In this document: piece after piece, positions 36,765 to 51,277 of the stretch
How positions within the stretch are numbered: the first letter of the stretch is position 1
How the letters are laid out: every line of letters begins with the position of its first letter
Assembly: GCF_036346105.1 (NCBI RefSeq)
Contig: NZ_CP107811.1
Coordinates: 3,662,501 to 3,726,500 of the forward strand
Direction of reading: 5' to 3'
From: Streptomyces sp. NBC_00539
GTDB lineage: Bacteria > Actinomycetota > Actinomycetes > Streptomycetales > Streptomycetaceae
DNA length: 64,000 nucleotides
Notes under the pieces: generated by a model
What the model was told of the DNA's origin: nothing
What the model saw: only the letters and a program-made list of their open reading frames with translations
Databases searched by the model: none
Position numbers and translations under genes: made by a program

Positions 36765-37775
36765 CTAGATCCAGCCGTGGTCGCGGGCCAGCAGCGCGGC
36801 CTGGAAGCGGTTCGTCGCCCCCAGGCGCTGCATCAGGTCCGCCACGTACTTGCGGTAGGTGCGGACGGAGACGCCGACCTCGCGGGCCCCGCTCTCGTCC
36901 TTCTCCGCCTGGTACATCGTGGTCAGCACCTTGCGTTCGATGTCGGTGAGCGCGGCGCCCGTACCCTGGCGGGCCGCGACCGCCTCGCGCAGGTCGACCG
37001 AGTCCGACCACATCCGCTCGAACAGCGAGACCAGGTTGGCCACCAGTCCCGGTTGCCGGATCACCAGGGCCCCCAGGCGTGGGTTCTGCGGGTCGATCGG
37101 GGTCAGCGCGGCGGCCCGGTCGAAGACGAGCATCCGCTCCAGCGGCTTGTCCGAGATCCGGATCTCGGCCCCCATCGCCGAGATCTCCTGGAGGTAGGCG
37201 AGGGTCGGGCCGTCCTCCACCGCCTCCGTGCGCATGATCGTGCGCATCTGTATGCCGCGCCGCAGGATGCGGGCGTCCAGCGGCCGGGACGCCTCGATGC
37301 TGGCCGCGCTGAGCGCGCCGTGCGGCTGGGTGGTCAGCCCCTCCTGCCGGGTGAAGAACGTCAACTCGTCGATCACCGCCCGGACGTTGGGGGTCCCCTC
37401 CACCCGTTCGATGGCCGGCCGCTCCGACATCTGCTCGGCCACCGGACGCACCGCGTGGCGCTCCGCGAGCAGCGACTCGACTACCCGCTGCTCGGCGGCC
37501 ACCCGCTGCAGCTCCTCGCGCAGTTCGCGCAGCCTCAGATCGATCAGCCGCTGCACGGCGATCGCGGGCGGAGCGGGCCGGATGCAACCGTTATCGGCCA
37601 ACGCCGTCAGTTCCACCGACTCCAGCCGTGCCAGCCACTCCTCCACATCGGGCAGCGGCCGGCCGAGCTGGTCGGACAGGTCGGCGGGCGTGGCCTCGGA
37701 CAGGCGGAGCAGGCATCTGTACAGGTCCTCGTCCTCGGCCGTCATCCCCAGGTGCGTGAGGCTTCCTGCTCGCAT
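36765..37775 (-). CDS. LuxR/TrmB-type transcriptional regulator beside the RiPP cluster
   Basis: 336 residues; ATG with AAGGGGA 5-6 bases upstream. An N-terminal TrmB-like winged helix (about 15-75: DEDLYRCLLRLSEATPADLSDQLGRP), a central phospholipase-D-like or ligand domain (about 115-260) and a C-terminal LuxR-type HTH (about 275-336: LTDIERKVLTTMYQAEKDESGAREVG and RLGATNRFQAALLARD). Regulators of this build often lie at the edge of RiPP and other peptide clusters in Streptomyces. It is divergent from the secreted protein and oxidoreductase genes and probably controls the daptide-type cluster. Confidence 0.85.
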   Translation of the reverse strand: MRAGSLTHLGMTAEDEDLYRCLLRLSEATPADLSDQLGRPLPDVEEWLARLESVELTALADNGCIRPAPPAIAVQRLIDLRLRELREELQRVAAEQRVVESLLAERHAVRPVAEQMSERPAIERVEGTPNVRAVIDELTFFTRQEGLTTQPHGALSAASIEASRPLDARILRRGIQMRTIMRTEAVEDGPTLAYLQEISAMGAEIRISDKPLERMLVFDRAAALTPIDPQNPRLGALVIRQPGLVANLVSLFERMWSDSVDLREAVAARQGTGAALTDIERKVLTTMYQAEKDESGAREVGVSVRTYRKYVADLMQRLGATNRFQAALLARDHGWI

Positions 37776-38013
37776 GGTTCCCCTTACATGGTGGTGCCCC
37801 GTGTGGTCAGCACGGTGTTGTGATCATACGAATCCAGACACCTGCTGACGAACAACGCCGCGCGCCGGTGTGAGGCGCCCGGAGCGGTGGCCGTGCAACT
37901 TGCTGCACGACAGGACGCAGGAAGCTGCGCCCGTTTTGCCTCGAACGGGAACCGTCCGGTCGGCAGTCTTCTCCTTGTCGGAACAACGGCGATCCACACA
38001 GGGGGAAAAGCAC

Positions 38014-38316
38014 ATGGGGAACACCTTCACCCGGCGGGCACGAATCGTTTCTGCCGCCGCGGGGTTCACGGTCGCGGCCGGTCTCACCTTCGGCGGCCCG
38101 TTCATCCACCCGCCCGTCCAGGACACGCCGGCGGCCTCCGCCTCGGCGGCGGACCGGGCGCGCTGCGTGCTCTCCCTCGTGGACTTCGTGGAAGGCGACT
38201 GCACCGACGTGTTCAAGCCGGCCGGGCGGCCGGACGCGGTCCCGGGCCCCGGCGGCCACGGCAAGCAGGACAAGGAGCCGGTCGTCGACCGGCGCGAGAC
38301 CTTCGACTGGATCTGA
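38014..38316 (+). CDS. Small secreted protein at start of RiPP cluster
   Basis: 100 residues from the ATG at 38014, with AGGGGGA 7-8 bases upstream. Signal peptide: TRRAR followed by IVSAAAGFTVAAGLTFGG, with cleavage near residue 30. The mature part is short, with two cysteines (ARCVLSLVDFVEGDCTDVF) that may form a disulfide, and an acidic/basic tail. No family is recognised. It is 35 bp upstream of the LLM oxidoreductase gene and probably co-transcribed. It could be an immunity or surface factor for the cluster, but that is a guess. Confidence 0.75.
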   Translation: MGNTFTRRARIVSAAAGFTVAAGLTFGGPFIHPPVQDTPAASASAADRARCVLSLVDFVEGDCTDVFKPAGRPDAVPGPGGHGKQDKEPVVDRRETFDWI

Positions 38317-38351
38317 GCGACGTACGAGGAAGGAAAGGGGAGCACGCCGTC

Positions 38352-39311
38352 ATGACCGCCTACTCGGTCCTCATACCGTTCCTGCCGCGCCGGCCGGAAC
38401 AAGTCCTCCCCTACGCCGCCCTCGTGCACTGGACCCACGCCCAGCGGCTCTGGCAGGGACAGTCCCTGATGGTGGAACCCCACCACGGCTTCGTCCACGC
38501 GGCGGGTGCGGGCTTCCGGGTCCCGACCGGGCTGGGGGTGACGCTGATGCCACTGCGCCACCCCTACGAGGCCGCCCTCCAGGCCCGCTCACTGGCCCTG
38601 GCCACCGGGCAGCCGGTGGTCGCCGGCTTCGGGCCCGGAGCCCCGTCGCTCCAGCAGGGGCTGCTCGGAGCCCCGTACCGCAGCCCGCTCACCGCGGCCC
38701 GCGAGTACCTGACGGCCGTACGGGGCCTGCTGGCCGGTGAGACCGTCCGGATGGCGGGGGAGTACGTCTCCTGCGACGCGGCGCTCGTGCCGTTCCCCTC
38801 CCCCGCGGTGGAGCTGGGACTCGGCGTGCTGCGGCCGGCGATGGCCCGGCTCGCCGGTGAGGTCGCCGACGTGGCGATCACCTGGCTGACACCGGCCGCG
38901 TACCTGCGGGACACCGTGCTGCCGGCGCTGCGCGAAGGCGCGGCGAAGGCCGGCCGGCCCGTGCCCCGGCTGACGGCGATGGTGCCGCTGGCGCTGAGCC
39001 GTACCGGCCGGGCGCCGGCCGAGGTCGCGCTCGCCAGCAACGCCGTGCACCTGGGACTGCCGCACTACACCGACATGCTGCGCAGGTCCGGCATCGAGAT
39101 CACCGGCACGGACCGGGAAGCGGACGCCCGGGCGCTGGTCGAGGGCCGCGGGTTCCTCAGCGGCGACCTCGCCGAACTCGTGGCGCAGCTGCGGGAGTAC
39201 GAGGACGCGGGCGTCGACGAGATCGTCCTCAACGTCACCGGTGTGGCCACTCTCCACGGCCCGCAGGCGGCCACGGACGAACTCAAGACCGTCCTGGCCG
39301 CTCTGGCCTAG
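38352..39311 (+). CDS. LLM-class flavin-dependent oxidoreductase
   Basis: 319 residues. Luciferase-like TIM barrel: LPYAALVHWTHAQRLWQGQSLMV near 18-40, TGLGVTLMPLRHPYEAALQARSLA near 59-82, VVAGFGPGAPSLQQGL near 89-104, and a C-terminal DAGVDEIVLNVTG near 290. It is shorter than many F420-dependent members. It probably uses FMN or F420 to oxidise or reduce a small group. It precedes the daptide-type modification genes in the same direction, separated by an 8-bp microsatellite. Whether it acts on the peptide (for example redox tailoring of the C-terminal ketone) or is incidental cannot be decided. Confidence 0.87.
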   Translation: MTAYSVLIPFLPRRPEQVLPYAALVHWTHAQRLWQGQSLMVEPHHGFVHAAGAGFRVPTGLGVTLMPLRHPYEAALQARSLALATGQPVVAGFGPGAPSLQQGLLGAPYRSPLTAAREYLTAVRGLLAGETVRMAGEYVSCDAALVPFPSPAVELGLGVLRPAMARLAGEVADVAITWLTPAAYLRDTVLPALREGAAKAGRPVPRLTAMVPLALSRTGRAPAEVALASNAVHLGLPHYTDMLRRSGIEITGTDREADARALVEGRGFLSGDLAELVAQLREYEDAGVDEIVLNVTGVATLHGPQAATDELKTVLAALA

Positions 39312-39312
39312 G

Positions 39313-39360
39313 GCTACTGCGCTACTTCGCTACTTCGCTACTTCGCTACTTCGCTACTTC
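39313..39360. repeat. 8-bp microsatellite GCTACTTC
   Basis: Five exact copies of GCTACTTC (39321-39360) preceded by one variant GCTACTGC (39313-39320), in the leader between the oxidoreductase stop and the recognition-protein gene. It is a candidate for slippage. Confidence 0.95.
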
Positions 39361-39438
39361 GCTTCAACGCGCGCGGCGCGCCGGGCACGTTCGGCGCGCT
39401 CGTCGCGCTCATCGAAATCTTACGAACAAGGGGGAGTC

Positions 39439-40488
39439 ATGGCGGGAATCAAACGGCATCTGATGCTCTGGGGCACGGGAAGGCCCGTCGCGGACCATTT
39501 CGCGGCGGGAGCCGCGACGGTCGTCCTGGAGAACCCGGCCCACCTCCCCGCCCTGCTCGGCTCGGACCTCGTCGGCCCGCGCTCCGTGGTGTTCGTACCC
39601 GGTCACGTGGACGGTACGGACGCCCCCGCCACGGACGGCCCCGCGGGTCCCCTCGTCGTCGGCTACGAGGGTTCGCTGAGCGAGCCCGGCGCCGAATGCT
39701 CCCTCGGCTCCGACTTCTACCTCCAGATCCAGAACTACGGCGTCAGCGCCTACATGTCGGTCGTCGGCCCCACGCTGATCCGCGTCGCCGACGCGATGGA
39801 CCTCGACGCCTACCTCGCCGACGCCGACCAGGCCCGGCAGACGGGTCTCTTCCCCGAGTTCCTCACCAACCCCGTCATCCAGCTCGCCGACCTGCCGGCC
39901 CTCGGCGCGGCCACGGCCGGCGACGGACCGCGCCGCCGGCTCCACGCCGACCAGGACGGCGTCCTGTCCACCGCACCGGGCGGCCCCCGCCTCGGCGTGC
40001 TCGGCGAGGACGCGCTGGAGCGACTGGAGTCGCGGTGGGCGGCGCAGGACTGCGCCGGACGGGGCCCGGCAGCGGAGCGCCCCTGGCTGGGGCGCTACCT
40101 CGCCGCGGTCGACGCGGTCCGCGACCTGCGGGCCCGCGGTGTGGCCGACGTGAAGGTCTCCGGATTCGGCGGCCGGCTGGGCGCCGCCGCGGCCTCCCCG
40201 GCCGCCGACGCCGCCGCGGACGCCACCGACGCGCTCCTGCCGCTGCTGCTGTGGTCCGGGGAGACGGTCTACCTCCACGACCCCGTGGCCGGACGCAGCT
40301 TCCGGCTCGACCCCGTCGCCGGGGCACTCGCGGAGGCGCTCCTGGTGTCCGGTTCCGTGGCCGCGGCCTGCGCGCACGCCGACCGGGACGCACTGGAGCG
40401 CGTCGCCGCCTACTTTGCGGACGCCGGGATCGCGCTCTGCCCGGCCGAGGTGTCGCCGGCGCGCGAGCTCGTGACGGCGGGGAGCTGA
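39439..40488 (+). CDS. mpaB: Daptide-type RiPP recognition protein
   Basis: 349 residues; ATG with GGGGGAG 3-9 bases upstream. It matches what I know of the daptide recognition protein family by its N-terminal block IKRHLMLWGTGRPVADHF, the AATVVLENPAHLPALLGSDLVGP-type strand-turn and its constant place before methyltransferase, aminotransferase and dehydrogenase genes. The C-terminal half (about 270-345) looks like a peptide-binding wHTH/PqqD-like RRE: YLHDPVAGRSFRLDPVAGALAEALLVSG. It would bind the precursor leader and present the C-terminal Thr to the modifying enzymes. Assignment rests on context as much as on sequence. Confidence 0.8.
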   Translation: MAGIKRHLMLWGTGRPVADHFAAGAATVVLENPAHLPALLGSDLVGPRSVVFVPGHVDGTDAPATDGPAGPLVVGYEGSLSEPGAECSLGSDFYLQIQNYGVSAYMSVVGPTLIRVADAMDLDAYLADADQARQTGLFPEFLTNPVIQLADLPALGAATAGDGPRRRLHADQDGVLSTAPGGPRLGVLGEDALERLESRWAAQDCAGRGPAAERPWLGRYLAAVDAVRDLRARGVADVKVSGFGGRLGAAAASPAADAAADATDALLPLLLWSGETVYLHDPVAGRSFRLDPVAGALAEALLVSGSVAAACAHADRDALERVAAYFADAGIALCPAEVSPARELVTAGS

Positions 40489-40493
40489 CGGCC

Positions 40494-41390
40494 ATGACGA
40501 CGACGCTGACGACTCCGGCCCCGCCGGTGGACCCCGCCGTCCCCGGAGACCGGGTCCCCGACCCCGCCGTCCCCGGAGACCGGGTCCCCGACCCCGCCGC
40601 CGTCCCCGGACGGGCCGGCGAGCTGCTGGCCTCGCTTGGGGAGCGCGCGGTCCTGTGCGACCTGTACGACGCGGTGGGCGCCTCGGTGTACCACGACCTC
40701 GCGGGCACCGGCACCCACGAGGTGCGCGAGCTGCTCGGCCTGGTCCGCCGCGTCCCGGGCCGGGTCCTCGACCTGGCGGCGGGCTCCGGACGCCTGACGC
40801 TGCCGCTCCTGGCACTGGGCCGCGAGGTCACCGCTCTGGAACTCTCGCCCCACATGCTGGAGTTGCTAGCGCAGCGACTGGAGCAGGCGCCGCCCGCGCT
40901 GCGGGAGCGCTGCCTGCCCGTCCGGGCCGACATGAGCGACTTCGCGCTCGGCGGGCAGTTCGCCGTGATCGTGCTGGGCACCACCACGATCTCGCTGCTC
41001 GACGCCGAGGGCCGGGTGGGCCTGTACCGGTCGGTGCGCGAACACCTGGCGCCCGGCGGCCGGTTCCTGCTGTCGACGGTCGACATGAGCGCCGCCGGCA
41101 CCGGTCCGGACGAGGTCGACATGGAGATCGTGACCGACAGCGGACGCGCCTACCGCCTCTTCGAACACTGGACGCCCGACTCCGGCAGCCGCACCGTCAC
41201 CCTCTTCCCGGCCGTGATCGGCGAGGACGGACCGGTCGAGGTCTGCACCACCACCATCGGCGTGCTGCCCGCCGGACTCCTGGAGGCCGAACTGGCCGCC
41301 GCGGGGTTCTCGGTCCTGTCCCGCCATCCGCTGCCCGCCGTCGGCGAGCGCCACCACGACGTACTGCTGGAAACGGAGGTGACCCGGTGA
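40494..41390 (+). CDS. mpaM: Daptide-type RiPP N-methyltransferase
   Basis: 298 residues. Class I SAM-dependent methyltransferase: motif I RVLDLAAGSGRLTLPLLALG (about 83-102), an acidic ALELS after it, RADMSDFALG (about 143), and HLAPGGRFLLSTVDMS (about 183). In daptide biosynthesis this enzyme dimethylates the amine formed at the modified C-terminus. The N-terminus holds a tandem peptide repeat DPAVPGDRVP from a perfect 30-bp DNA duplication, which is probably disordered. It starts 5 bp after the recognition-protein stop and overlaps the aminotransferase start as GTGA. Confidence 0.88.
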   Translation: MTTTLTTPAPPVDPAVPGDRVPDPAVPGDRVPDPAAVPGRAGELLASLGERAVLCDLYDAVGASVYHDLAGTGTHEVRELLGLVRRVPGRVLDLAAGSGRLTLPLLALGREVTALELSPHMLELLAQRLEQAPPALRERCLPVRADMSDFALGGQFAVIVLGTTTISLLDAEGRVGLYRSVREHLAPGGRFLLSTVDMSAAGTGPDEVDMEIVTDSGRAYRLFEHWTPDSGSRTVTLFPAVIGEDGPVEVCTTTIGVLPAGLLEAELAAAGFSVLSRHPLPAVGERHHDVLLETEVTR

Positions 41391-42691
41391 GCGGCACCAC
41401 GCACGCCGACCCGGTCGGCCACCCGCTGTGGCCCTCGCTGACCGCACCGCAGGACCAGGGCCGCGACGACCTCTGCGCGGTCTCCGCCCAGGGCGTCCGG
41501 GTCACCTTCGCCGACGGACGCGAACTGCTCGACGGCTCCAGCGGACTGTGGAATACCAACATCGGCTACGGGAACCCCCGGATCGCCCGAGCCGCCGCCG
41601 ACGCCCTCCACGAAGCCTCCTACCTCGGTGTCTTCCGCTACGAGAACGTCTACGCCCGCCGCGCGGCGCAGGCCCTGATCGACCTGTGCGGCCCCGCCCA
41701 CTACGGCCGCGTGCTGTTCTCCACCTCCGGCGGCGCCGCCAACGACCTGGTCATGAAGGTGGCCCGGCAGTACCACGCGCTGGGCGGCCGGGCCCAGCGC
41801 AAGGTGGTCGTCGGACTGCGCGGCAGCTACCACGGCCTGACCTACGGCAGCTTCGGCCTGACCGGCGACGACCTCGGCCAGCAGCTCTACGGCGTCGACC
41901 AGCGCCTCGTCCGGCACGTCGCCCCCAACGACCCGGCCGAGCTGGGCGCGCTCATGGCCCGCCAGGGCGGCCAGATCGCGGCCGTCGTGGTGGAGCCGGT
42001 GCTCGGCAGCGGCGCCGTACCGCTCACCGAGGAGTACGTCGGTGAACTGCTGCGGCTGCGCCGGGAGCACGGCTTCCTGCTGGTCGCCGACGAGGTCGCC
42101 ACCGGCTTCGGCCGCACCGGCAGCTTCTTCGCCTCCCAGCAGTGGGCCGAACAGCCCGACCTGCTCGTCTCCTCCAAGGGACTCACCAACGGCACCAGCG
42201 CGGCAGCCGTCGTGATCGCCTCCCGCCAGGTGGCCGCGGCCTTCAACGAGGCCGGCGCGCTGCTCACCCACGGGGAGACCCAGGCCGGGACCCCGGTCAC
42301 CTGTGCGGCGGTCCTCGCCACCATCGACGAGATGCGCAGGCTGGACGCGGTCGCCATGGGCCGGCGCCTGTCGGCCCGCCTCGATGCCGAACTGGCGGCG
42401 CTCGTCGCCGGGCACCCCCGGGTGGCGGCGACCACGGGACTGGGCTGCTTCCGCTCCGTGCGGCTGTGCGGACCCGACGGGACACCGTTCCCGCAGGGCG
42501 AGGTGCACGCCCTGGTCCAGGCGGTCCGGGAGGCCGGGGCCATCGTCCACCCCGGCGTGAACGGGGTGCAGCTGATCCCCGCCCTCACCTACACCGACAG
42601 CGACCTCGCCGAACTGCTGGCCTGCGTCACCGCGGGCCTGGAGATCCACCTGGCGCGGACCGCCGACCGGGCGGCGGAGGCCCTCGCGTGA
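41387..42691 (+). CDS. mpaD: Daptide-type RiPP aminotransferase
   Basis: 434 residues, GTG start overlapping the methyltransferase stop. Class III PLP aminotransferase: NTNIGYGNPRIARAAADAL (about 56-74), FSTSGGAANDLVMKVARQ (about 111-128), D235 in LVADEVATGFGRTGSFF and the PLP lysine K264 in LLVSSKGLTNGT. In the daptide pathway it would transaminate the C-terminal ketone, formed after oxidation and decarboxylation of Thr, to an amine before methylation. Coupled GTGA overlaps at both ends show tight co-translation with methyltransferase and dehydrogenase. Confidence 0.9.
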   Translation: MSGTTHADPVGHPLWPSLTAPQDQGRDDLCAVSAQGVRVTFADGRELLDGSSGLWNTNIGYGNPRIARAAADALHEASYLGVFRYENVYARRAAQALIDLCGPAHYGRVLFSTSGGAANDLVMKVARQYHALGGRAQRKVVVGLRGSYHGLTYGSFGLTGDDLGQQLYGVDQRLVRHVAPNDPAELGALMARQGGQIAAVVVEPVLGSGAVPLTEEYVGELLRLRREHGFLLVADEVATGFGRTGSFFASQQWAEQPDLLVSSKGLTNGTSAAAVVIASRQVAAAFNEAGALLTHGETQAGTPVTCAAVLATIDEMRRLDAVAMGRRLSARLDAELAALVAGHPRVAATTGLGCFRSVRLCGPDGTPFPQGEVHALVQAVREAGAIVHPGVNGVQLIPALTYTDSDLAELLACVTAGLEIHLARTADRAAEALA

Positions 42692-43869
42692 GCGCCGGCT
42701 GGCACGCCCCGGCCCAGCAGCTGATCGGCTGCGACAGTCTGGGCCCCTGGCTCGCGGGCCGCGCCGAGCGGAAGGTGACCGTCCTCGTGGACGAGGCCGT
42801 CGCCTCGGCCCCGGTGACCGCCCGGGTCCGCGCCCAGCTCGACGGGGGGCGGCACCAGGTACGGGTGCTGGCACTGTCCGGCGCCGGGGACCTGCGGACG
42901 GTGGCCGCACTCGCCGACCGGCTGGCGGACACCGAGCTCGTCGTCGGGATCGGCGGCGGCTCCCTCCTCGACCAGGCCAAGCTGGCCACCCTGATCCGCG
43001 CCAACCCCGACGCGTACGCCCGCCTCACGGTGCCGCAGCGCAGCGGGCTGCTGGTCCTCGGCCCGGGCACCACGCGGAGCCTCCCGCTGGTCGCCGTCCC
43101 CACCACGGTCGGCACCGGCACCGAGTTCAGCGGCGTCGCCTGCCTCAGCTACCCGGAGCAGGGCAAGCGGCTCGTCATGGGCACCGCGCTACGGCCCAAG
43201 GTGGCCGTCCTGGACCCCGTCGCGACCGGCACCCTCGACGACGAACTGATCGCCGAGGGAGTCCTGGAGGCGCTGTTCCGCGTGGTCAGCCCCTACGTCG
43301 GCGACCACGGGGACCTGCCCACCGAGGACGCGCTCGTCGAGACCATCGCGCAGCGGCTGGTGCTGCTGGGCCACGAGGTGCGCGACGCGCGGCGTGCGGG
43401 CCGGCCCACCGACGACCGGCTGCGGCTGGAGATCGCGAAGCTCAGCGGTCTCAGCCACGCCGAGTGGGCGCACCTGGGCCGTGACCTGTACGCGGTCAAG
43501 GGCTGGCTCATCGCCAACGAGCTGTCCTCCGCCCTCGGCGTACGCAAGATGACCGCGGTCGCCGCGATCCTGCCGCACCTGTGGCGGGCCATCACGGCCG
43601 GTGAGAGCCGTCTCGGTTCGGCCGTCCGGCTGGAGCGGATGTGGTCCCGGCTACGGGCCACCGGCCCCGACACCCTGCCCGCGGACCCGGCAGCGGGCAT
43701 CGAGGCCCTGATCGACTCATGGCGGATCGGCCGGACGATCACCGCGGGCCCGGACCGGCTCGCCGCCGTCGCGGGCCGCACGGTCCGCGCCTGGGGCGCC
43801 GGGCTGCCGATGCTCGGCGGCCTGCGGACCGACGACGTGTACGGGCTGCTGTACGAGGCCGCGGCCTGA
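42688..43869 (+). CDS. mpaC: Daptide-type RiPP dehydrogenase (Fe-ADH fold, metal ligands lost)
   Basis: 393 residues, GTG start overlapping the aminotransferase stop. Group III alcohol-dehydrogenase/DHQS fold: the NAD(P)-binding GIGGGSLLDQAKLA (about 87-100), LVAVPTTVGTGTEFSGVA (about 134-151) and VAVLDPVATGTLDDELIAEG (about 172-191). The usual iron ligands are replaced: Asp/His of the DAxxH motif are E194 and R198, and the later His positions read NELSSALG (about 277) and VRKMTA (about 285). It is expected to oxidise the Thr side-chain hydroxyl so that the beta-keto acid decarboxylates. How it does this without iron is open. Confidence 0.85.
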   Translation: MSAGWHAPAQQLIGCDSLGPWLAGRAERKVTVLVDEAVASAPVTARVRAQLDGGRHQVRVLALSGAGDLRTVAALADRLADTELVVGIGGGSLLDQAKLATLIRANPDAYARLTVPQRSGLLVLGPGTTRSLPLVAVPTTVGTGTEFSGVACLSYPEQGKRLVMGTALRPKVAVLDPVATGTLDDELIAEGVLEALFRVVSPYVGDHGDLPTEDALVETIAQRLVLLGHEVRDARRAGRPTDDRLRLEIAKLSGLSHAEWAHLGRDLYAVKGWLIANELSSALGVRKMTAVAAILPHLWRAITAGESRLGSAVRLERMWSRLRATGPDTLPADPAAGIEALIDSWRIGRTITAGPDRLAAVAGRTVRAWGAGLPMLGGLRTDDVYGLLYEAAA

Positions 43870-43963
43870 CGCCGCCCCGGTGACCCGGCACCACCCCCGA
43901 GCTTCCGCACCCGCGGCATCCACCGCGCGGTGCGGTCGTCAGAGCACATCTGACTCACGCACC

Positions 43964-43996
43964 ACACCTGATCAACACCTGATCAACACGCGCTCA
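43964..43996. promoter_or_regulatory. Three 11-bp direct repeats before the precursor genes
   Basis: ACACCTGATCA twice in tandem, then a weaker third ACACGCGCTCA, ending 25 bp before the first precursor start. The 11-bp phase places the units on one DNA face, as for activator sites. Confidence 0.6.
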
Positions 43997-44021
43997 ACCA
44001 CTACGGAGACAGGAGCACACC

Positions 44022-44198
44022 ATGCAGGACAACCTCGCGCTGGACGCCTTCCCCGCCCTTGAGCTGGGCATGCAGGAGCTCGAAGCCATGGAGGCGCCGG
44101 GCTGGTGGACCGGTATCGGCGTCGGCGCCGGTGTCGTGGTCGCCTCCGCGGCGGCCTACGGCAGCTACGTCGGTTCCGCGGCCCTCATCGCCACCTGA
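44022..44198 (+). CDS. mpaA: Daptide-type precursor peptide, copy 1
   Basis: 58 residues with GGAG upstream of the ATG. The leader contains LELGMQELEAMEAPG (residues 13-27), which is shared by all three precursors. The predicted core starts near GWWTGIGVG and is a hydrophobic Gly/Ala/Val/Ser helix ending in ALIAT. The invariant C-terminal Thr is the site that daptide enzymes convert to dimethylated 1,2-propanediamine. There is no cysteine. The core has three Ser (positions 42, 48 and 52) and Thr30 as possible dehydration sites. Such cores are membrane-active in known daptides. The DNA is identical to copy 2. Confidence 0.9.
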   Translation: MQDNLALDAFPALELGMQELEAMEAPGWWTGIGVGAGVVVASAAAYGSYVGSAALIAT

Positions 44199-44205
44199 GG
44201 AGCCC

Positions 44206-44224
44206 GTACCGCCCAGGGCGGTAC
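44206..44224 (+). other. Intercistronic hairpin 1 between precursor genes
   Basis: GTACCGCC, loop CAG, GGCGGTAC: 8 perfect pairs, 7 bp after the first precursor stop, without a T-run. It probably stabilises or processes the mRNA rather than terminating it. Confidence 0.7.
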
Positions 44225-44269
44225 GCCTTCACCCCCTTCCCACGACCCGTAAGGAAAAAGGAGCACACC

Positions 44270-44446
44270 ATGCAGGACAACCTCGCGCTGGACGCCTTCC
44301 CCGCCCTTGAGCTGGGCATGCAGGAGCTCGAAGCCATGGAGGCGCCGGGCTGGTGGACCGGTATCGGCGTCGGCGCCGGTGTCGTGGTCGCCTCCGCGGC
44401 GGCCTACGGCAGCTACGTCGGTTCCGCGGCCCTCATCGCCACCTGA
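44270..44446 (+). CDS. mpaA: Daptide-type precursor peptide, copy 2 (identical)
   Basis: 58 residues, identical to copy 1 in every base of the coding sequence, and with a better ribosome site (AAGGAAAAAGGAG). The 248-bp unit of gene plus spacer is repeated, which implies a recent tandem duplication or active gene conversion to raise the dose of one peptide. Leader, core and terminal Thr are as for copy 1. Confidence 0.9.
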   Translation: MQDNLALDAFPALELGMQELEAMEAPGWWTGIGVGAGVVVASAAAYGSYVGSAALIAT

Positions 44447-44453
44447 GAAGCCG

Positions 44454-44472
44454 GTACCGCCCAGGGCGGTAC
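44454..44472 (+). other. Intercistronic hairpin 2 between precursor genes
   Basis: Second copy of GTACCGCC, loop CAG, GGCGGTAC, again 7 bp after a precursor stop, followed by the same spacer and ribosome site as after copy 1. Confidence 0.7.
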
Positions 44473-44517
44473 GCCTTCACCCCCTTCCCACGACCCGTAA
44501 GGAAAAAGGAGCACACC

Positions 44518-44673
44518 ATGCAGGACGTCCTCAAGCAGGAGATCACCACCCCCGGTCTGGAACTGGGCATGCAGGAGCTGGAGGCCATGGAGGCCCCGGG
44601 CTTCTGGTCCGGCTTCAAGCAGGGCCTGGTCATCAGCGGCGTCGCCGTGGCCAGCGCCACGCTCGCCACCTGA
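44518..44673 (+). CDS. mpaA: Daptide-type precursor peptide, divergent copy 3
   Basis: 51 residues. It shares the start MQD and the block LELGMQELEAMEAPG (residues 14-28) with copies 1-2, but the leader before it and the core differ. The core begins near GFWSGFKQG and ends ATLAT, again with a C-terminal Thr and no Cys. The spacer and ribosome site before it are the same as before copy 2, so only the coding part diverged. The cluster should therefore make two different modified peptides, as two-component or mixed products. Confidence 0.9.
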   Translation: MQDVLKQEITTPGLELGMQELEAMEAPGFWSGFKQGLVISGVAVASATLAT

Positions 44674-44746
44674 TCGCTCCGGTAGCTCCCGCTACCCCGA
44701 TCACCGCTGACCGGATCCCCGGTCTCCCAGGGTGACTTGGTCCCGT

Positions 44747-44769
44747 GGCGGTGGCGCACAGCCACCGCC
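44747..44769 (+). terminator. Attenuator-like hairpin after precursor genes
   Basis: GGCGGTGGC, loop GCACA, GCCACCGCC: 9 perfect pairs; a weaker GGTAGC/GCTACC stem lies at 44681-44696. There is no T-run. It could limit read-through into the transporter genes so that precursors are made in excess. Confidence 0.6.
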
Positions 44770-44827
44770 GCGGGCCCCTGGCCGGATCACGAACGACATG
44801 CACAGAGCCGAAGGAAGAGGGAGACAC

Positions 44828-45022
44828 ATGCCGAAGAAGGAATCCCGCAAGGTGTCGAACAGCCAGCTGGGGACGACCGCCGCGCTGCTCGCGCTGGCAA
44901 TGGCCGTCGCCGGCGCACAGTTGTCCGGGGTCGCGCAGACGGCCGTCATGGCGATCATCGGCCTCGGCCTGCTCGGCGTCCTCGCCCGCCTCGGCGCCAA
45001 CGCCCGCGCGGACAAGCGATGA
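44828..45022 (+). CDS. 64-aa membrane protein of the RiPP cluster
   Basis: 64 residues, ATG with AGAGGGAG upstream. A basic N-terminus (MPKKESRKVSN) is followed by two hydrophobic helices (about 16-32 and 35-54) and a charged tail. The stop overlaps the ABC ATPase start as ATGA. The position between precursors and exporter fits an immunity peptide or a small exporter subunit; the sequence alone does not say which. It lacks the conserved leader block, so it is not another precursor. Confidence 0.75.
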   Translation: MPKKESRKVSNSQLGTTAALLALAMAVAGAQLSGVAQTAVMAIIGLGLLGVLARLGANARADKR

Positions 45023-45771
45023 GCGCAGCAGGAGTCGTCCGCGCCTCGGGCCTGAGCAAGGACTTCGGCCCGTTCACCGCCGTGCAGGACCTCAGCTTCG
45101 AGGTCCGTCCCGGCCGGGTGACCGGCCTCCTCGGCCGCAACGGCGCCGGCAAGTCGACGTCCCTGCGGATGCTGCTCGGACTGGTCCGCCCGACGGCCGG
45201 CACCGCCACCGTCTTCGGCCACCCCTACACCGAACTCCCCGACGCCGCCCGCCGGATCGGCGTCTGCATGGACGGCATCGGCCCCACCCCCGGCGCATCC
45301 GGCCGCCGCGACCTGCGGATCTGGGCGCGGACCCTCGGCGTGTCGCACACCCGCGTGGACGAGGTACTGGACCGCGTCGGGCTCGCCGACAGCGCCGACC
45401 GCGCCGCCAAGGGCTACTCCACCGGCATGCGCCAGCGCCTCGCCCTGGCCACCGCGCTGCTCGCCGACCCCGAACTGCTGGTCCTGGACGAGCCGGCCAA
45501 CGGCCTCGACCCCGACGGCATCCGCTGGCTGCGCGACACCCTGCGCGCCCTGGCCGCCGAAGGCCGGACCGTGCTGGTCTCCAGCCACCTGCTGGCCGAG
45601 GTCGAACAGACCGTGGACGACGTCGTGATCATCCAGCGCACCCTGCGCTTCGCGGGCTCCCTCGCCGAGCTCACCTCCGACGGCGCCGAACGCCTGGAGG
45701 ACCGGTTCTTCGCGCTGGTGGACGAGAACGCCGAGACCGGCACCCGCACCGAAAGGCTCACCCATGCGTAA
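45019..45771 (+). CDS. ABC transporter ATP-binding protein
   Basis: 250 residues, coupled to the preceding gene by ATGA. Walker A GRNGAGKST (39-47), signature region YSTGMRQRLALATALL (about 134-149), Walker B LLVLDEPANGLDP (about 153-165) and the H-loop VSSHLL (about 192). It is of the drug/bacteriocin-export type that pairs with a separate six-helix permease. The permease gene overlaps its end by 8 bp. It probably exports the mature daptide-type peptides or gives self-resistance. Confidence 0.95.
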   Translation: MSAAGVVRASGLSKDFGPFTAVQDLSFEVRPGRVTGLLGRNGAGKSTSLRMLLGLVRPTAGTATVFGHPYTELPDAARRIGVCMDGIGPTPGASGRRDLRIWARTLGVSHTRVDEVLDRVGLADSADRAAKGYSTGMRQRLALATALLADPELLVLDEPANGLDPDGIRWLRDTLRALAAEGRTVLVSSHLLAEVEQTVDDVVIIQRTLRFAGSLAELTSDGAERLEDRFFALVDENAETGTRTERLTHA

Positions 45772-46507
45772 CCTCGTCCCCGGCGAGTGGATGAAGGCCT
45801 GGACCGGCCGGACCTGGCTGGTGCTCGCCTCCGCCGGGATCTTCATGTCCCTCATCACCTGCTTCGGTTACGCCTCCCAGGGCGACGGGGACATCGCCCT
45901 CGGCACCACCACCGCCTCCGCCGTCACCGACGACATGGTGCAGGCGTGGATGATGACGTTCCTGATGTCCGCGGTGTTCGGCGCCCTCCTCGTCACCCGC
46001 GAGTACTCCTCCGGCGCCATCGCCCGCTCGGTCCTGCTCAGCGGCGGACGGCTGCGGCTGCTGTCCGCCAAGGCGCTGGTCGCCACCGCGGTCGGCGTAC
46101 TGGGCGGCCTCCTGGCCGTCGCCCTCGCCGCCCTCTGCGCCTTCCTGCTGCCCGCCCGCTTCGGCTTCAGCGCCGACTGGACCGGCCACACCACCCGTAT
46201 CGCCCTCGGTGTGCTGACCGTCAACGCGCTCGCCGCGCCCTGGGGCGCGCTCCTCGGCTGGATCATCCGCAGCCAGCTCGCCACCGTCGTCACCGTCATG
46301 GCGCTCACCCTCCTCGTGGAGCCGGGCCTGCAGGAACTCGCCCCGCAGGTGGCCAAGTACCTTCCCACCATCGCGATGAGCTCCGTCTACCTCGACGGCA
46401 AGCCCGAGCTGCTCTCCGTACCGCTCGCGCTCCTGGTCCTCGCCGGCTGGCTCGCCGCCGCCGGGACCGCCGCCCGCCGGCTGCTGCTCTCACGCGACGT
46501 CATCTAA
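45764..46507 (+). CDS. ABC transporter permease
   Basis: 247 residues with six predicted membrane helices (about 18-38, 63-82, 102-128, 145-163, 173-192 and 220-240). The ABC-2-type pattern is seen in VTREYSSGAIARSVLLSGGRLRLLSAKALV near residues 75-105. It overlaps the ATPase gene by 8 bp and forms the exporter or immunity transporter of the cluster with it. Confidence 0.9.
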   Translation: MRNLVPGEWMKAWTGRTWLVLASAGIFMSLITCFGYASQGDGDIALGTTTASAVTDDMVQAWMMTFLMSAVFGALLVTREYSSGAIARSVLLSGGRLRLLSAKALVATAVGVLGGLLAVALAALCAFLLPARFGFSADWTGHTTRIALGVLTVNALAAPWGALLGWIIRSQLATVVTVMALTLLVEPGLQELAPQVAKYLPTIAMSSVYLDGKPELLSVPLALLVLAGWLAAAGTAARRLLLSRDVI

Positions 46508-46521
46508 GGCGTGATCCAGAC

Positions 46522-48270
46522 ATGTCCACCAAGACGGCACCCCACCCGGCACCCCGGCCGGTACCCCAGACGACACCTCGCAAGAGACCCCGGACGGCAG
46601 CCATGACGATGCTCAAGACGGCACCCAGGACGGCACCCGGGCCGGCCACCGCCGAGTGGGACCCCGCGCTCCTGGAACGCCCGCGCATCGCGCCCGACGT
46701 GGAGATCCACGAGCCCGTCGAGACCGGCGCCCCCTGGGTGCTCCAGCGCGGCCACCACCAGCACTTCCGACTCCAGCCCGACATGGCGCGCCTGGTGCGG
46801 GCGATGGACGGCTCCCTCGACCACACCGGTCTCGCCGAGGTCCTCGGACCGCCCTGGACCGCGCACCACGTCGCCTCCGCCGTCAACAAGCTCGCCGAGA
46901 CGAAGGTCCTCGACGACGGCAAGCCCGTCGAACGCCGAAGCACCTGGTTCCGGTTCGTCCCGCCGATGACGCTCCAGTTCACGGTGCTGCGCCCGGAGCG
47001 GCTGCTGGCCCGCCTCGCGCCGGTCGTCAACCTGCTCGCAGGCCGCACCGCGGCCGCCGTCGCGGCCCTGTTCGTCCTCGGCGGCGTCCTCGCCCTGGCC
47101 CTCATGGCCCCCGAGGTCGACGCCGCGCTGGGCCGGCCGCTCCCGCTCTCCGCCTACTTCGCCGTGCTGATCGGGGTGCTCGCGACCACCGCCGTCCACG
47201 AGGTCGGCCACGGCGCGGTCCTCACGTACCACGGCGGACGGCCGAGCCGGATGGGCGTGATGCTCTTCTACATGTCGCCCGCCTTCTTCTGCGACGTCTC
47301 CGACGGCTGGCGGCTCTCCCGCAAGGAACAGCGCGTCCAGGTCGCCCTGGCCGGCATCGCCACCCAGACCGTGATCGCCGGAGCCGCGGCCCTGACCGCC
47401 CTGTTCCTGGCCCCCTCGGACCTGCGCGACGCCGTCGTCGTCTTCGCCGTCGCCACCTACACCAGCGGCGTCGTCAACCTGCTGCCGTTCGTGAAGCTCG
47501 ACGGCTACATCGCGCTCATGAGCCACCTCGACGTCCCGCACCTGCGCGACCACGCCATGACCGACGCACGCCGGTTCCTCGCCAAGATCCTCTTCGGCGG
47601 CCGCTACACCCGCGAACTCCCGGGCCGGCCCTGGGCCGTGGCCTTCGGACTGGCCTGCATGGCCTTCCCCCTCTACGTCATCGCCGGGGCCCTGACCCTC
47701 TGGTCCGACCTGCTGCAACGGCTCGGCGCCGTCGGCACCAGCACCGTCCTGATGGCCGTCTGCTACCTCGTCTACCGCCTCGGCCTCGGCTTCACCCGCC
47801 TCGCCGGCGAGGGCCGCACCGCCGGCGCTTCCCGGTGGCGCACCGCCGCCGCGGCCGTGCTGCTCACCGCGGCGGCGGGGGCCGCGCTGGCCTTCGTCAA
47901 GCTGCCCTACACCGTGGCCGCCGGATACGTCGCCCAGGACCGGGGCCGCCTCGAACTGGTCCTGCCGAGCACCGCCGACCTCTCCGCGGTCCGCGAGGGC
48001 GCCACCGTCCGGTTCTACCGGGCCGGGGTGATGACCCGGGAGCAGACCGGCACCGCGACCGTCGCCGCTCTGCACCACGCCGACACCAAGGCCCCCCTCT
48101 CGGCCTTCCTGCCGGTGGCCTCCACCGCGCTGGAGCTGCCCGTCGTCAGCTACCCGCTGACCGTCGGCCAGGCCCCCGCCGACCGCGCCGGGGCGGCCCA
48201 GCTCGACCTCGGCAGGCTCCCGCTGGGGGAGTGGCTGTACACGAAGTACGTCACCCCGCTCTGGAACTAG
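46522..48270 (+). CDS. mpaP: M50-type intramembrane metalloprotease of the RiPP cluster
   Basis: 582 residues. A Pro/Thr/Arg-rich N-terminus (about 1-45), then a winged-helix-like domain (about 60-145) that could bind the leader, then a membrane protease: the zinc motif HEVGH at 226-230 and the third ligand D327 in LPFVKLDGY. Further helices follow and a beta-rich domain (about 470-560) of the HlyD/biotinyl-lipoyl type closes the protein. Daptide clusters carry such a protease, proposed to remove the leader. In-frame ATGs at codons 28 and 30 are alternative starts. It is 14 bp downstream of the permease gene. Confidence 0.88.
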   Translation: MSTKTAPHPAPRPVPQTTPRKRPRTAAMTMLKTAPRTAPGPATAEWDPALLERPRIAPDVEIHEPVETGAPWVLQRGHHQHFRLQPDMARLVRAMDGSLDHTGLAEVLGPPWTAHHVASAVNKLAETKVLDDGKPVERRSTWFRFVPPMTLQFTVLRPERLLARLAPVVNLLAGRTAAAVAALFVLGGVLALALMAPEVDAALGRPLPLSAYFAVLIGVLATTAVHEVGHGAVLTYHGGRPSRMGVMLFYMSPAFFCDVSDGWRLSRKEQRVQVALAGIATQTVIAGAAALTALFLAPSDLRDAVVVFAVATYTSGVVNLLPFVKLDGYIALMSHLDVPHLRDHAMTDARRFLAKILFGGRYTRELPGRPWAVAFGLACMAFPLYVIAGALTLWSDLLQRLGAVGTSTVLMAVCYLVYRLGLGFTRLAGEGRTAGASRWRTAAAAVLLTAAAGAALAFVKLPYTVAAGYVAQDRGRLELVLPSTADLSAVREGATVRFYRAGVMTREQTGTATVAALHHADTKAPLSAFLPVASTALELPVVSYPLTVGQAPADRAGAAQLDLGRLPLGEWLYTKYVTPLWN

Positions 48271-48326
48271 GGCGTGTCTTCCGGATCACGCCGCGGGCTG
48301 ATCCGGCCTGATCCGAGAGACACGCC
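48271..48326. other. Long imperfect inverted repeat between protease and LanKC genes
   Basis: GGCGTGTCT-TC-CGGATCA at 48271-48288 pairs with TGATCCG-AG-AGACACGCC at 48309-48326, with a 20-bp loop. It begins right after the protease stop codon. It may be a terminator, or a small decayed mobile element with terminal inverted repeats. Confidence 0.6.
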
Positions 48327-48407
48327 AGACACGCCCAGCCCGTCCGAGCCGTCCCTCCGCCCGTCACGAACGGGCCGTCCCTTCCCGCGTCCCGAACGGA
48401 GAGCACC

Positions 48408-50942
48408 ATGGATCTTCGCTACATGAACTACTGCCGGCCCGGCGATCCGTTCTACGACGTACCGGCCGGCGCCGCCGACACCGGCGTGTTCCCCGCGGTG
48501 ACGGGCCCCGTCCCGGACGGCTGGACCCGCAGCGACAACACCCACTGGCTGCTGATGACGCCGCCGGACACGACGCTGCCCGGCCAGGGCTGGAAGATCC
48601 ACGTGTCCGCCACCCTCGACAACGCGGCCGCGATCCTCGACCTGGTCTGGGACTTCTGCGTCGCCGAGCGGGTCACCTTCAAGTTCATCCGCAGCGCCGC
48701 GATCCTCAAGCTGCGCAACAGCAAGTACGGCGAGCGGGGCAACAGCGGCAAGTTCTTCACGATCTACCCCACCGACGAAGCGCAGCTGGAACGGATCCTC
48801 ACCCGTCTCGGGGACCTCCTCGACGGCGAGCAGGGCCCGACCATCCTCAGCGACCTGCGCTGGCGCTCCGGCCCGCTGTACGTGCGCTACGGCGGCTTCA
48901 TCTCCCGCCTGGGCCGCTCCGAGACCGGCGAACTCGTGCACTGCATCGAGGACCCCGAGGGCCGCCTGGTGCCCGACGTACGCGGGCCCTCCTTCCGGCC
49001 CCCGTCCTGGGTGAGCCTGCCCGACTGCCTGGCCGGGGCGCTCGCCGCCCGCAACGCCGCCACCCTGCGGGACTTCCCGTTCCGGGCGACCAAGGCCCTG
49101 CACTTCTCCAACGGCGGCGGCGTCTACGTGGCGACCGACACCCGCACCGGCGGCTCCGTCCTGCTCAAGGAGGCACGCCCGCTGGCCGGGCTCGACGAGG
49201 ACGGCGCCGACGCCGTGGCCCGGCTGGAGCGCGAGCACTGGGCGCTGGAGCAGCTGTCCGGCCTGGACTGCATCCCGGCGGTCGTGGACTACCGCAAGGG
49301 CCACGAGCACTGGTTCCTGGCCCGGGAGTACGTCGAGGGCAAGCCGCTCGCCCGGGAACTCCTCAGCCGCAACCCCATGGTGGCCGACGACCGCACCCCC
49401 GCAGCCGCCGACGCCCACGCCGAGTACACCGCCTGGGCCTTGAAGATCCTCGACCAGGTGGAGCGGGGCGTGGAGGCCATGCACGCCAAGGGCGTCGTCT
49501 TCGGCGACCTCCACCCGAACAACATCCTGGTCCGCCCCGACGACACCGTCTCCTTCATCGACCTGGAGACCGCCACCCCCGTGGGCGAGGAGTCCGAGCA
49601 GGCCATCGGCGCCCCCGGCTTCCGCGCGCCCGCCGGGTACCGGGGGACCGCCGTCGACCGGTACGCGCTCGCCTGCATCCGGCTGGGCGTGTTCGTGCCG
49701 CTGACGGTCATGGCCACCTGGTCCCGGGCCAAGGTGGACCAGCTGATCGACCTGGTCACCGACCGCTTCCCGGTGCCCGCCGACTTCGGCGCGCGGATCC
49801 GGCGCGACCTCGGGCCGGCCCCGTACCCCGGCCACGCCGCGGGGACGGACCCGGACCCGCTGTGGACGGCGCCCACCCGCGCGAGCTGGCCCGCACTGCG
49901 GCGCACCCTCGCCGAGGACCTGCTGGCCAGTGCCACGCCGCACCGCGAGGACCGGCTGTTCCCCGGGGACATCGAGCAGTTCTCCCTCCCCGGCGGCGGA
50001 GCCACCTTCGGCTACGGCGCGGCCGGGGTGCTGTGGACACTGGCCGAGCTGGGCTTCGAGCCCGCCCCCGGGCACCTGGACTGGCTGACGGACGCCGCCC
50101 GGCGCACCCCCGGGATGCGGCCCGGCTTCTACGACGGGCTGAGCGGGATCGCGTACGCCCTGGACCGGCTCGGCCGCACCGAGGAGGCCCACGCCGTCCT
50201 CGACCGGGTAAGCGCGGCTCCGCTGGAGGACGTGGACCACGGCCTGTCCGGGGGGCTCGCCGGGATCGGCCTGACCCAGCTGCACTTCGGTCGCACCGAG
50301 GAGGCCGGCCGGATCGCCGCCCTCCTCGCCGACCAGGCGCCGGGCGGGGTGGCCGGCCGGCCCAGAGCCGGGCTGCTGCACGGTTCGGCGGGCGGGGCGC
50401 TGCTGATGCTCCGGCTGCACGAAGCCACCGACGACCCCAAGTACCTGCACGTGGCCGGGGAGTTGCTCCGTCACGACCTCGAGGAGGCGGGCTGGTCCGC
50501 CGCCGGGGACCCTTCCGGCGACGCCCCGTGGAAGGTGCCCTTCCTGGCCTTCGGGGGCGCCGGTCTCGCCATGGTGGTGCACGAGGTGGCACGCCGTCTG
50601 CCCGACCCGGAGTTCACGGCCGCGCGGGACGCGCTGCGCGAGGTGGCCGCCCCGGCCTTCATGCTCAACTCCGGGCTCTTCCACGGCCGGGCGGGCGCCC
50701 TGATGGCCCTGCGGCACCTGCACGACGGGTCCACCGCCGCCGAGGACGCGGTGGAGCGGCACCTCGACGCACTCGGCTGGCACGCGGTGCGCTGCGAAGG
50801 CCACCTGGCCTTCTTCGGCGACCACGCCCTGCGGCTGTCGGCCGACCTGGCGACCGGTACGGCCGGCGTCCTCCTCGCGGTGGAGACGGCCCTGGGTGAG
50901 CCCGCCCCCGGCCTGCCGTTCCTCGCACCCAGCCCCCGCTGA
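48408..50942 (+). CDS. Class III lanthionine synthetase (LanKC)
   Basis: 844 residues; ATG with GGAGAG upstream. Three domains are in order. The lyase (about 1-215) has GWKIHVSATLDNAAAIL, VTFKFIRS and KYGERGNSGKFFTIYP. The kinase (about 235-510) has a nucleotide Lys in VLLKEARP, the catalytic loop VVFGDLHPNNILV and SFIDLETA. The cyclase-like domain (about 525-840) has GFYDGLSGIAYAL, GLSGGLAGIGL and LLHGSAGGALLML. The Cys/His zinc ligands of LanC-type cyclases are not apparent, as in class III. It phosphorylates and eliminates Ser/Thr to dehydro residues. The only nearby precursors lack Cys, so lanthionine rings cannot form on them. Confidence 0.93.
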   Translation: MDLRYMNYCRPGDPFYDVPAGAADTGVFPAVTGPVPDGWTRSDNTHWLLMTPPDTTLPGQGWKIHVSATLDNAAAILDLVWDFCVAERVTFKFIRSAAILKLRNSKYGERGNSGKFFTIYPTDEAQLERILTRLGDLLDGEQGPTILSDLRWRSGPLYVRYGGFISRLGRSETGELVHCIEDPEGRLVPDVRGPSFRPPSWVSLPDCLAGALAARNAATLRDFPFRATKALHFSNGGGVYVATDTRTGGSVLLKEARPLAGLDEDGADAVARLEREHWALEQLSGLDCIPAVVDYRKGHEHWFLAREYVEGKPLARELLSRNPMVADDRTPAAADAHAEYTAWALKILDQVERGVEAMHAKGVVFGDLHPNNILVRPDDTVSFIDLETATPVGEESEQAIGAPGFRAPAGYRGTAVDRYALACIRLGVFVPLTVMATWSRAKVDQLIDLVTDRFPVPADFGARIRRDLGPAPYPGHAAGTDPDPLWTAPTRASWPALRRTLAEDLLASATPHREDRLFPGDIEQFSLPGGGATFGYGAAGVLWTLAELGFEPAPGHLDWLTDAARRTPGMRPGFYDGLSGIAYALDRLGRTEEAHAVLDRVSAAPLEDVDHGLSGGLAGIGLTQLHFGRTEEAGRIAALLADQAPGGVAGRPRAGLLHGSAGGALLMLRLHEATDDPKYLHVAGELLRHDLEEAGWSAAGDPSGDAPWKVPFLAFGGAGLAMVVHEVARRLPDPEFTAARDALREVAAPAFMLNSGLFHGRAGALMALRHLHDGSTAAEDAVERHLDALGWHAVRCEGHLAFFGDHALRLSADLATGTAGVLLAVETALGEPAPGLPFLAPSPR

Positions 50943-50959
50943 CCCTCCCGGAGCCCACG

Positions 50960-51277
50960 ATGCGCACCCGCACCTACCACCTCGTCGTCGCCCCGGACGG
51001 CCGCGCCCCCGCGGGCTCGGCCCCGGAGCTGGCGGCGGTACGGCTGATCTCGTTACTCCCGCCCAACTGGCGTTACAGCCCCGCATACCCCTCGGACGGC
51101 ACGCTCTCCCTGACCCTCCAGCCCCCGCCCGGAACCCGCGAAGAGGCCGCCCACGCCGTCCTCTTGCGCACCTTCGCCTCCCCCATCCTCCACGGCTGGA
51201 CCTGGAGCAACGCGCCGGCCGGCTCCGGGCAGGGTGAACCCGGTATCCGGGGACGGGAGCGATCGAGGTCGAGATGA
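50960..51277 (+). CDS. Small protein following LanKC, unknown
   Basis: 105 residues; ATG with GGAG 9-12 bases upstream, 17 bp after the LanKC stop, so probably co-translated. The first 85 residues look structured (RTRTYHLVVAPDGR, then AVRLISLLPPNWRYSPAYP, then REEAAHAVLLRTFASPILHGWTW). The last 20 are Gly/Arg/Ser-rich and may be a read-on tail. No Cys is present and there is no leader-core pattern, so it is not an obvious lanthipeptide precursor. It could be an accessory of the synthetase. It ends 7 bp before the convergent MerR-like gene. Confidence 0.65.
   Translation: MRTRTYHLVVAPDGRAPAGSAPELAAVRLISLLPPNWRYSPAYPSDGTLSLTLQPPPGTREEAAHAVLLRTFASPILHGWTWSNAPAGSGQGEPGIRGRERSRSR

Follow-up and report, generated by a model that had tools for sequence, protein, structure and literature searches.

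The gene set at positions 36765–51277 of the window (the whole 64,000-nucleotide stretch of DNA analysed here) raises two questions: which peptides does it make, and what switches their production on? The interval comprises one long set of genes on the plus strand, with a divergent regulator gene at the left end (36765–37775, minus strand). Taken as a whole, it is best explained as a Streptomyces daptide RiPP cluster of the LanKC/LanJC subgroup (probability about 0.85). The biosynthetic part is a further member of an already known daptide kind, and it is the candidate signalling pair at the operon head that lifts the finding above that kind.

In NCBIfam scans with curated cut-offs, all five hallmark daptide proteins scored far above threshold: the RRE-containing RiPP recognition protein DapB (39439–40488; NF041823, daptide_RRE, 360.6 bits, cut-off 150), the methyltransferase DapM (40494–41390; NF041820, daptide_MTase, 330.6 bits, cut-off 175), the class III aminotransferase DapD (41387–42691; NF041821, daptide_amino, 646.3 bits, cut-off 450), the oxidative decarboxylase DapC with an Fe-ADH fold (42688–43869; NF041822, daptide_DH, 504.1 bits, cut-off 300), and the intramembrane HExxH protease DapP (46522–48270; NF041824, daptide_HExxH, 517.5 bits, cut-off 300). 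The ABC exporter that accompanies the protease in this class is also present. Its ATPase DapT1 (45019–45771) matches ABC ATPase families with scores below their cut-offs, and a relative occupies the same position in most of 26 same-genus DapB regions; its ABC-2 permease DapT2 (45764–46507) scores 27.5 bits against PF12730 (cut-off 27). Short overlaps couple dapM to dapD, dapD to dapC, a gene for a 64-residue protein to dapT1, and dapT1 to dapT2. The scores of the five enzymes and of the three precursors described below bear out the initial annotation, which had called a daptide-type RiPP cluster; the coupled starts that it read at 41387 and 42688 are both real 4-nt overlaps, and the exporter and membrane protease lie after the precursors as it had stated. 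When DapC was aligned to YqhD at what we take to be the metal-ligand positions of the latter, its metal-site residues looked substituted. This agrees with the metal independence of TfDapC described in PMC12338566, which, like the other papers cited here, is used in excerpt.

The three precursor genes lie between dapC and the exporter genes. A1 (44022–44198; 58 aa, core GWWTGIGVGAGVVVASAAAYGSYVGSAALIAT) and A2 (44270–44446) are identical across 177 nt each, and A3 (44518–44673; 51 aa) carries the core GFWSGFKQGLVISGVAVASATLAT; they match NF041808 (daptide_123, cut-off 25) with 37.1, 37.1 and 39.8 bits, respectively. All three share the leader stretch ELGMQELEAMEAP, in which QELEAMEAP represents the daptide leader motif ELExMEAP, and all three end in the invariant Thr, as had been noticed initially. 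Each of the two different cores contains three Ser and no Cys. The earlier expectation of two peptides, one from copies 1 and 2 and one from copy 3, stands as far as the encoded cores are concerned, production being presumed from the genes. Among named relatives, the closest is Streptomyces sp. APSN-46.1 (L083; DapB 86% identical in the best segment), which shares both cores but has the first in one copy; the doubling of A1/A2 therefore looks recent. A1 and A2 are each followed by an identical hairpin, GTACCGCCC-A-GGGCGGTAC (44206–44224 and 44454–44472), possibly a partial terminator or an mRNA stabiliser between the precursor genes. The protein of 64 aa with hydrophobic segments (44828–45022) sits between the precursors and the exporter; it has few relatives (tblastn matches with E<1e-3 in six other daptide regions, two of them in one genome), and a role in immunity would be a guess.

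Two more enzymes are encoded on either side of these daptide genes. The first is a luciferase-like (LLM) F420-type reductase, LanJC/DapJ (J; 38352–39311), predicted to reduce Dha to D-Ala. It scores 115.8 bits against TIGR03564, below the cut-off of 234 and in that respect a point against the reading, and 98.7 bits against PF00296, and it is 57–78% identical to its counterparts in other daptide clusters. The second is LanKC (KC; 48408–50942), a class III lanthionine synthetase with RamC_N, kinase and LanC-like domains in Pfam (NF038151, 945.8 bits, cut-off 575), predicted to dehydrate Ser. Neither was mentioned in the enzyme set listed initially, whose five members are present but which was thus incomplete; the genes at 38014–38316, 44828–45022 and 50960–51277 were likewise absent from that account. 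The last of these, for a protein of 105 aa, is weakly conserved near other daptide clusters (tblastn E<1e-3 in ten other daptide regions) and matched no family in the NCBIfam or Pfam scans.

Among 393 same-genus genomes, own genome included, 24 gave a DapB match. The 26 same-genus DapB regions come from the 23 others; J is present in 25 of these regions and KC in 24. G377a, without J, and G147, without KC, both lie at contig ends, and the second region without KC is G125b, described below. Wherever all the genes are present in these regions, their order is the same, from J-B-M-D-C to P-KC. A scan of named genomes gave a similar picture: J occurs at 27 and KC at 24 of 29 loci, 25 of which are from Streptomyces, and the misses coincide with contig ends save for Microbacterium L111, which has neither. 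Neither gene was found at any of 14 Microbacterium-like loci (13 plus L111). The cores differ correspondingly, with 4.33 Ser per core in KC/J-type regions (75 distinct cores, a few of them from regions that break off short of J or KC) versus 0.92 in regions without the two genes (26 distinct cores). At a second locus of genome G125 (G125b; L081/L082), an LLM gene and a split dapB occur with no other daptide gene within 38 kb, which looks like the remnant of a second daptide cluster. Daptide clusters also occur on plasmids of Streptomyces and Actinomyces oris (L142–L145); the A. oris plasmid carries a YcaO-like gene, with LanKC and LLM not annotated in the stretch covered. LanKC, LLM and YcaO are found together in Streptomyces sp. 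NBC_01351.

These distributions bear on two other readings of the biosynthetic genes. The locus might be a minimal daptide cluster whose modification is confined to the C-terminal Thr, with LLM and LanKC as neighbours or idle. The mpa cluster, picked for encoding the primary modifying enzymes only, does make Dmp (PMC10036551, in excerpt), but the constant order of LLM and LanKC across the regions holding all the genes, and the far higher frequency of core Ser where the two are present, render this reading very improbable. LanKC might instead belong to a separate, adjoining class III lanthipeptide system. LanKC enzymes usually form lanthionine or labionin from Ser/Thr and Cys, in keeping with that idea. 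However, LanKC lies close behind dapP in relatives, and none of the 101 distinct daptide cores (75 KC/J-type and 26 without) contains Cys. We also searched 34–54 kb of the window for LanA-like precursors, that is, small ORFs that combine a ribosome-binding-like site with at least two Cys close to the C-terminus; seven small ORFs with Cys were judged by eye to be high-GC artefacts, and no convincing candidate was found in this stretch. We consider a separate system to be more improbable still, close to negligible.

The reading that we favour is a daptide cluster of the LanKC/LanJC subgroup, whose closest known member is the sca cluster of Streptomyces capuensis NRRL B-3501. Like the window, sca combines the core daptide enzymes with LanKC/LanJC. 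According to the excerpted report, its expression yielded a peptide, ScaA2, in which five Ser were converted to Ala, identified as D-Ala by Marfey's assay, and in which Dmp was present (PMC10036551); the cores of the window are different ones, with three Ser each. The tfDap cluster of Thermobifida fusca shares with the window dapBCDMP, T1T2, a LanKC homolog and a luciferase-like gene, but it also has YcaO and five precursors (PMC12338566, in excerpt); no gene in the interval matched a YcaO family in the NCBIfam and Pfam scans. The mpa cluster of Microbacterium paraoxydans shares the five class-defining proteins and the leader motif but, in the excerpts of PMC10036551, has no LanKC/LanJC, and Microbacterium-like cores are Ser-poor. 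The interpretation of the cluster given initially was thus sound in its outline and lacked the Ser to D-Ala change, which in the LanKC/LanJC subgroup would be added to the change of Thr to Dmp, as well as the candidate signalling pair.

By analogy with these relatives, DapB would bind A1/A2 and A3 through the ELGMQELEAMEAP leader, core Ser would be dehydrated by LanKC, and the resulting dehydroalanine would be reduced to D-Ala by the LLM reductase, a mechanism that we carry over from sca. The C-terminal Thr would be oxidatively decarboxylated by DapB and DapC, transaminated by DapD and dimethylated by DapM to give Dmp, and the product would be cleaved by DapP after the conserved Pro and exported by DapT1T2. 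The chemical steps are known from relatives in the literature, and their occurrence here is what the matching gene set suggests. The two products (A1=A2, and A3) should then each bear Dmp and up to three D-Ala; with all Ser converted, the predicted [M+H]+ values are 2917.609 for A1/A2 and 2302.343 for A3.

Encoding more than one core is usual. At least two different cores were found in 39 of 40 clusters, and 31 clusters include a pair of cores with less than 50% identity; the 40 clusters are different core sets, including that of Microbacterium L111, and regions without a found core were left out. The one remaining cluster, L089, is truncated at the edge of its contig. Certain mixtures of mpa daptides were more haemolytic (PMC10036551, in excerpt), which makes a two-component action of the daptide pair plausible by analogy.

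The placement of Ser in the cores raises the possibility that the D-Ala sites build a membrane peptide of the β-helical, alternating L/D type, as opposed to the α-helix reported for mpa daptides. In gramicidin, L residues alternate with D (or achiral) residues, and even Ser/Gly spacing in the KC/J-type cores would fit such an arrangement. In 30 non-redundant KC/J-type cores (identity threshold 0.65), Ser plus Gly showed a period of 2, with z of +11.4 at 180° and -0.4 at 100°; a simple α-helical pattern is thus unsupported for Ser plus Gly. Individually, 27 of 75 KC/J-type cores reached p<0.05 versus none of 26 without KC/J. Several points count against the idea: Ser alone has a further peak near 95°, cores without KC/J also peak at 165–170°, parity slips in some long cores, and the window's own two cores show the even spacing weakly and are not individually significant (p of 0.35 and 0.29). 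The terms "gramicidin" and "alternat" are absent from the excerpts of the two daptide papers (PMC10036551 and PMC12338566). On balance, we regard an alternating L/D structure as improbable.

The second question concerns the head of the operon. The regulator combines an N-terminal TrmB-type HTH (PF01978, 27.8 bits, cut-off 25.6) with a C-terminal LuxR/GerE HTH (PF00196, 26.4 bits, cut-off 23.5) and is predicted to be the sensor and regulator of the cluster. Between it and J lies a gene for a small protein of 100 aa (38014–38316), a candidate pheromone precursor with a signal-peptide-like N-terminus according to a home-made filter, two Cys, and the C-terminus RRETFDWI; it matched no family in Pfam or NCBIfam. 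In other daptide clusters that have the regulator, the same position is occupied by small proteins that differ greatly but share this build, and that end in NNNDWK, DNTDWQ, DTHNWD, ETYNWD, ETHEWG, PVHEWD and similar sequences. In all 11 small proteins listed, the last basic residue, leaving aside one at the very C-terminus, is followed by exactly six residues; the list leaves out five proteins that have similar endings or come from loci already represented, and the differently built L102, L104 and L108. Among 56 regions with J, drawn from overlapping collections in which some genomes are counted twice, 18 have regulator and peptide, 7 the regulator only, 29 neither, and 2 the peptide only. The two peptide-only regions are one locus counted twice and look spurious. 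Of the regulator-only regions, L102 and L108 have an HDWG motif further in, and the other five, of the S. scabiei type (two from one genome), have no Trp-peptide gene in the regulator–J interval, a point against the proposed signalling pair. Streptomyces sp. DH41 (G195/L104) has, ahead of its daptide operon, a small protein with five NxNHDWG units, four of which are followed by VPPMDSV.

The intergenic region between the regulator and small-protein genes contains three candidate control elements: an imperfect palindrome GTGCAACTTGCTGCAC (37893–37908; arms GTGCA/TGCAC), a possible first operator site; a second imperfect palindrome CGCAGGAAGCTGCG (37916–37929; arms CGCAG/CTGCG), the predicted main operator site; and a CGGCAG element (37961–37966, read on the plus strand) 45 nt past the second palindrome. 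In 11 aligned intergenic regions, the GCAG.A.G.TGC columns of the second palindrome and GGCAG of the third element are invariant; the first palindrome is conserved in part, with GCA invariant in 11 of 11. The distance from the second palindrome to CGGCAG is exactly 45 nt in nine clusters with both exact strings, and likewise in the window. The pattern formed by the window's two palindromes has one match in the 7.5 Mb of the own genome. GAACAAC repeats were rejected as the operator, not being conserved, unlike the second palindrome and the CGGCAG element. In our proposal, the operon would start with the pheromone precursor, which would release the C-terminal ETFDWI; the divergent regulator would sense this peptide, whether by a direct or an indirect route, and would act at the palindromes. 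Whether such a pair controls this daptide operon we hold to be about evenly balanced.

Similar pairs occur elsewhere in the genome and the genus. Relatives of the regulator were found at 17 places in the own genome (E≤0.001, itself included). At 13 own-genome regulator loci, own included, a small Trp-motif ORF lies on the divergent side in eight, and no such peptide gene was found on that side in five, which counts against the pairing. Several of these ORFs contain repeats: TTVWE twice, DVGWN three times, GDG[FY]GWS twice, and DLGW[ND]TAP twice. We then sought relatives of three own-genome regulators in 101 same-genus genomes each, own included, and examined 30 loci for each. Under a fixed criterion, the divergent upstream strand contained a match at 16, 22 and 29 of 30 loci for the three regulators. 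The corresponding counts were 3 of 270 for three control flanks and 74 among 2000 stretches of 1.22 kb chosen at random. Counting the five loci shared by two sets once, a divergent Trp-motif ORF was present at 62 of 85 distinct regulator loci and in 3 of 255 control flanks; at the random rate, a few of the matches may be due to chance. Loci of the pair family are the window pair, L146–L158 and L163–L249. Outside the genus, a Trp-tailed small ORF was found at 1 of 19 regulator loci, and none was found at L258, the single same-genus locus among 20 further regulator loci. Eight of the small proteins matched no Pfam or NCBIfam family, apart from one weak Pfam match below cut-off.

The L151 family gives the clearest view of the peptides. 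All 101 same-genus genomes searched contained a match to its regulator at E≤0.001, whether ortholog or paralog. A precursor is present at 30 of 30 loci, and 29 of the 30 precursors contain 2–9 Trp units; 101 of 105 units have Asp three residues before Trp (DxxWx). The identity of the units is 0.92 within precursors and 0.46 between them, while the highest value in 2000 shuffles was 0.55. Such identity within precursors, together with variety between them, is the expectation for a strain-specific short signal. In the own genome, the L151 pair (DLGWN/DLGWD units) is located at C1:3727989–3728777, about 1.5 kb beyond the right end of the window.

Pheromone systems of the RRNPP/Phr type comprise an exported propeptide, a short released peptide and an adjoining regulator gene. 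In these systems, known from Bacillota, the released peptide is sometimes repeated in the propeptide. The window pair resembles this architecture in its putative signal sequence, as judged by the home-made filter, and in the position of the adjacent regulator. Unlike RRNPP/Phr-type systems, however, its peptide gene is divergent and its regulator has TrmB and LuxR/GerE DNA-binding domains; these were its only Pfam matches above cut-off, with none to the tetratricopeptide sensor that accompanies the HTH in the RRNPP family. The result listings of a literature search contained no report of pairs of Trp peptides and TrmB-LuxR regulators.

The protein encoded at 38014–38316 might be exported without being a signal; it could, for example, confer immunity, act as a chaperone or serve as an extracellular partner of the daptide. 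Its single motif copy, its two Cys and the long divergent bodies of these small proteins are compatible with such a role. The similar pairs elsewhere in the genome and genus argue otherwise, as do the precursor-specific repeats in 29 of 30 L151 precursors, which are easier to reconcile with a short released signal than with a folded protein. We therefore consider a non-signalling role unlikely, although less so than an alternating L/D structure of the products. The architecture, repeats, position and footprint point instead to pheromone/regulator pairs, whose peptides would be exported, processed, taken up and bound, and one of which would govern the daptide genes. We accordingly propose, at what we judge to be roughly even odds, that Streptomyces possesses a large unrecognised family of signalling pairs, in which an exported propeptide with one to nine copies of a Trp-centred penta- or hexapeptide (DxxWx, xTTVWE, xxx[DNE]Wx) is encoded divergently from a TrmB/LuxR-type regulator. 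The peptide would be precursor-specific and probably recognised by the regulator, and the window pair would head and control a D-Ala daptide operon, a hexapeptide such as ETFDWI switching on production.

The biosynthetic part of the locus contributes a further natural D-Ala daptide, whose predicted masses can be tested. To our knowledge, the Streptomyces peptide signals thought to enter the cell through oligopeptide permeases have long been unidentified, and the regulatory part, if true, would provide candidates for them. Synthetic hexapeptides could then be tried on silent clusters. If true, the pairs would amount to a genus-wide peptide language in Streptomyces, tied at least once to a natural-product cluster.
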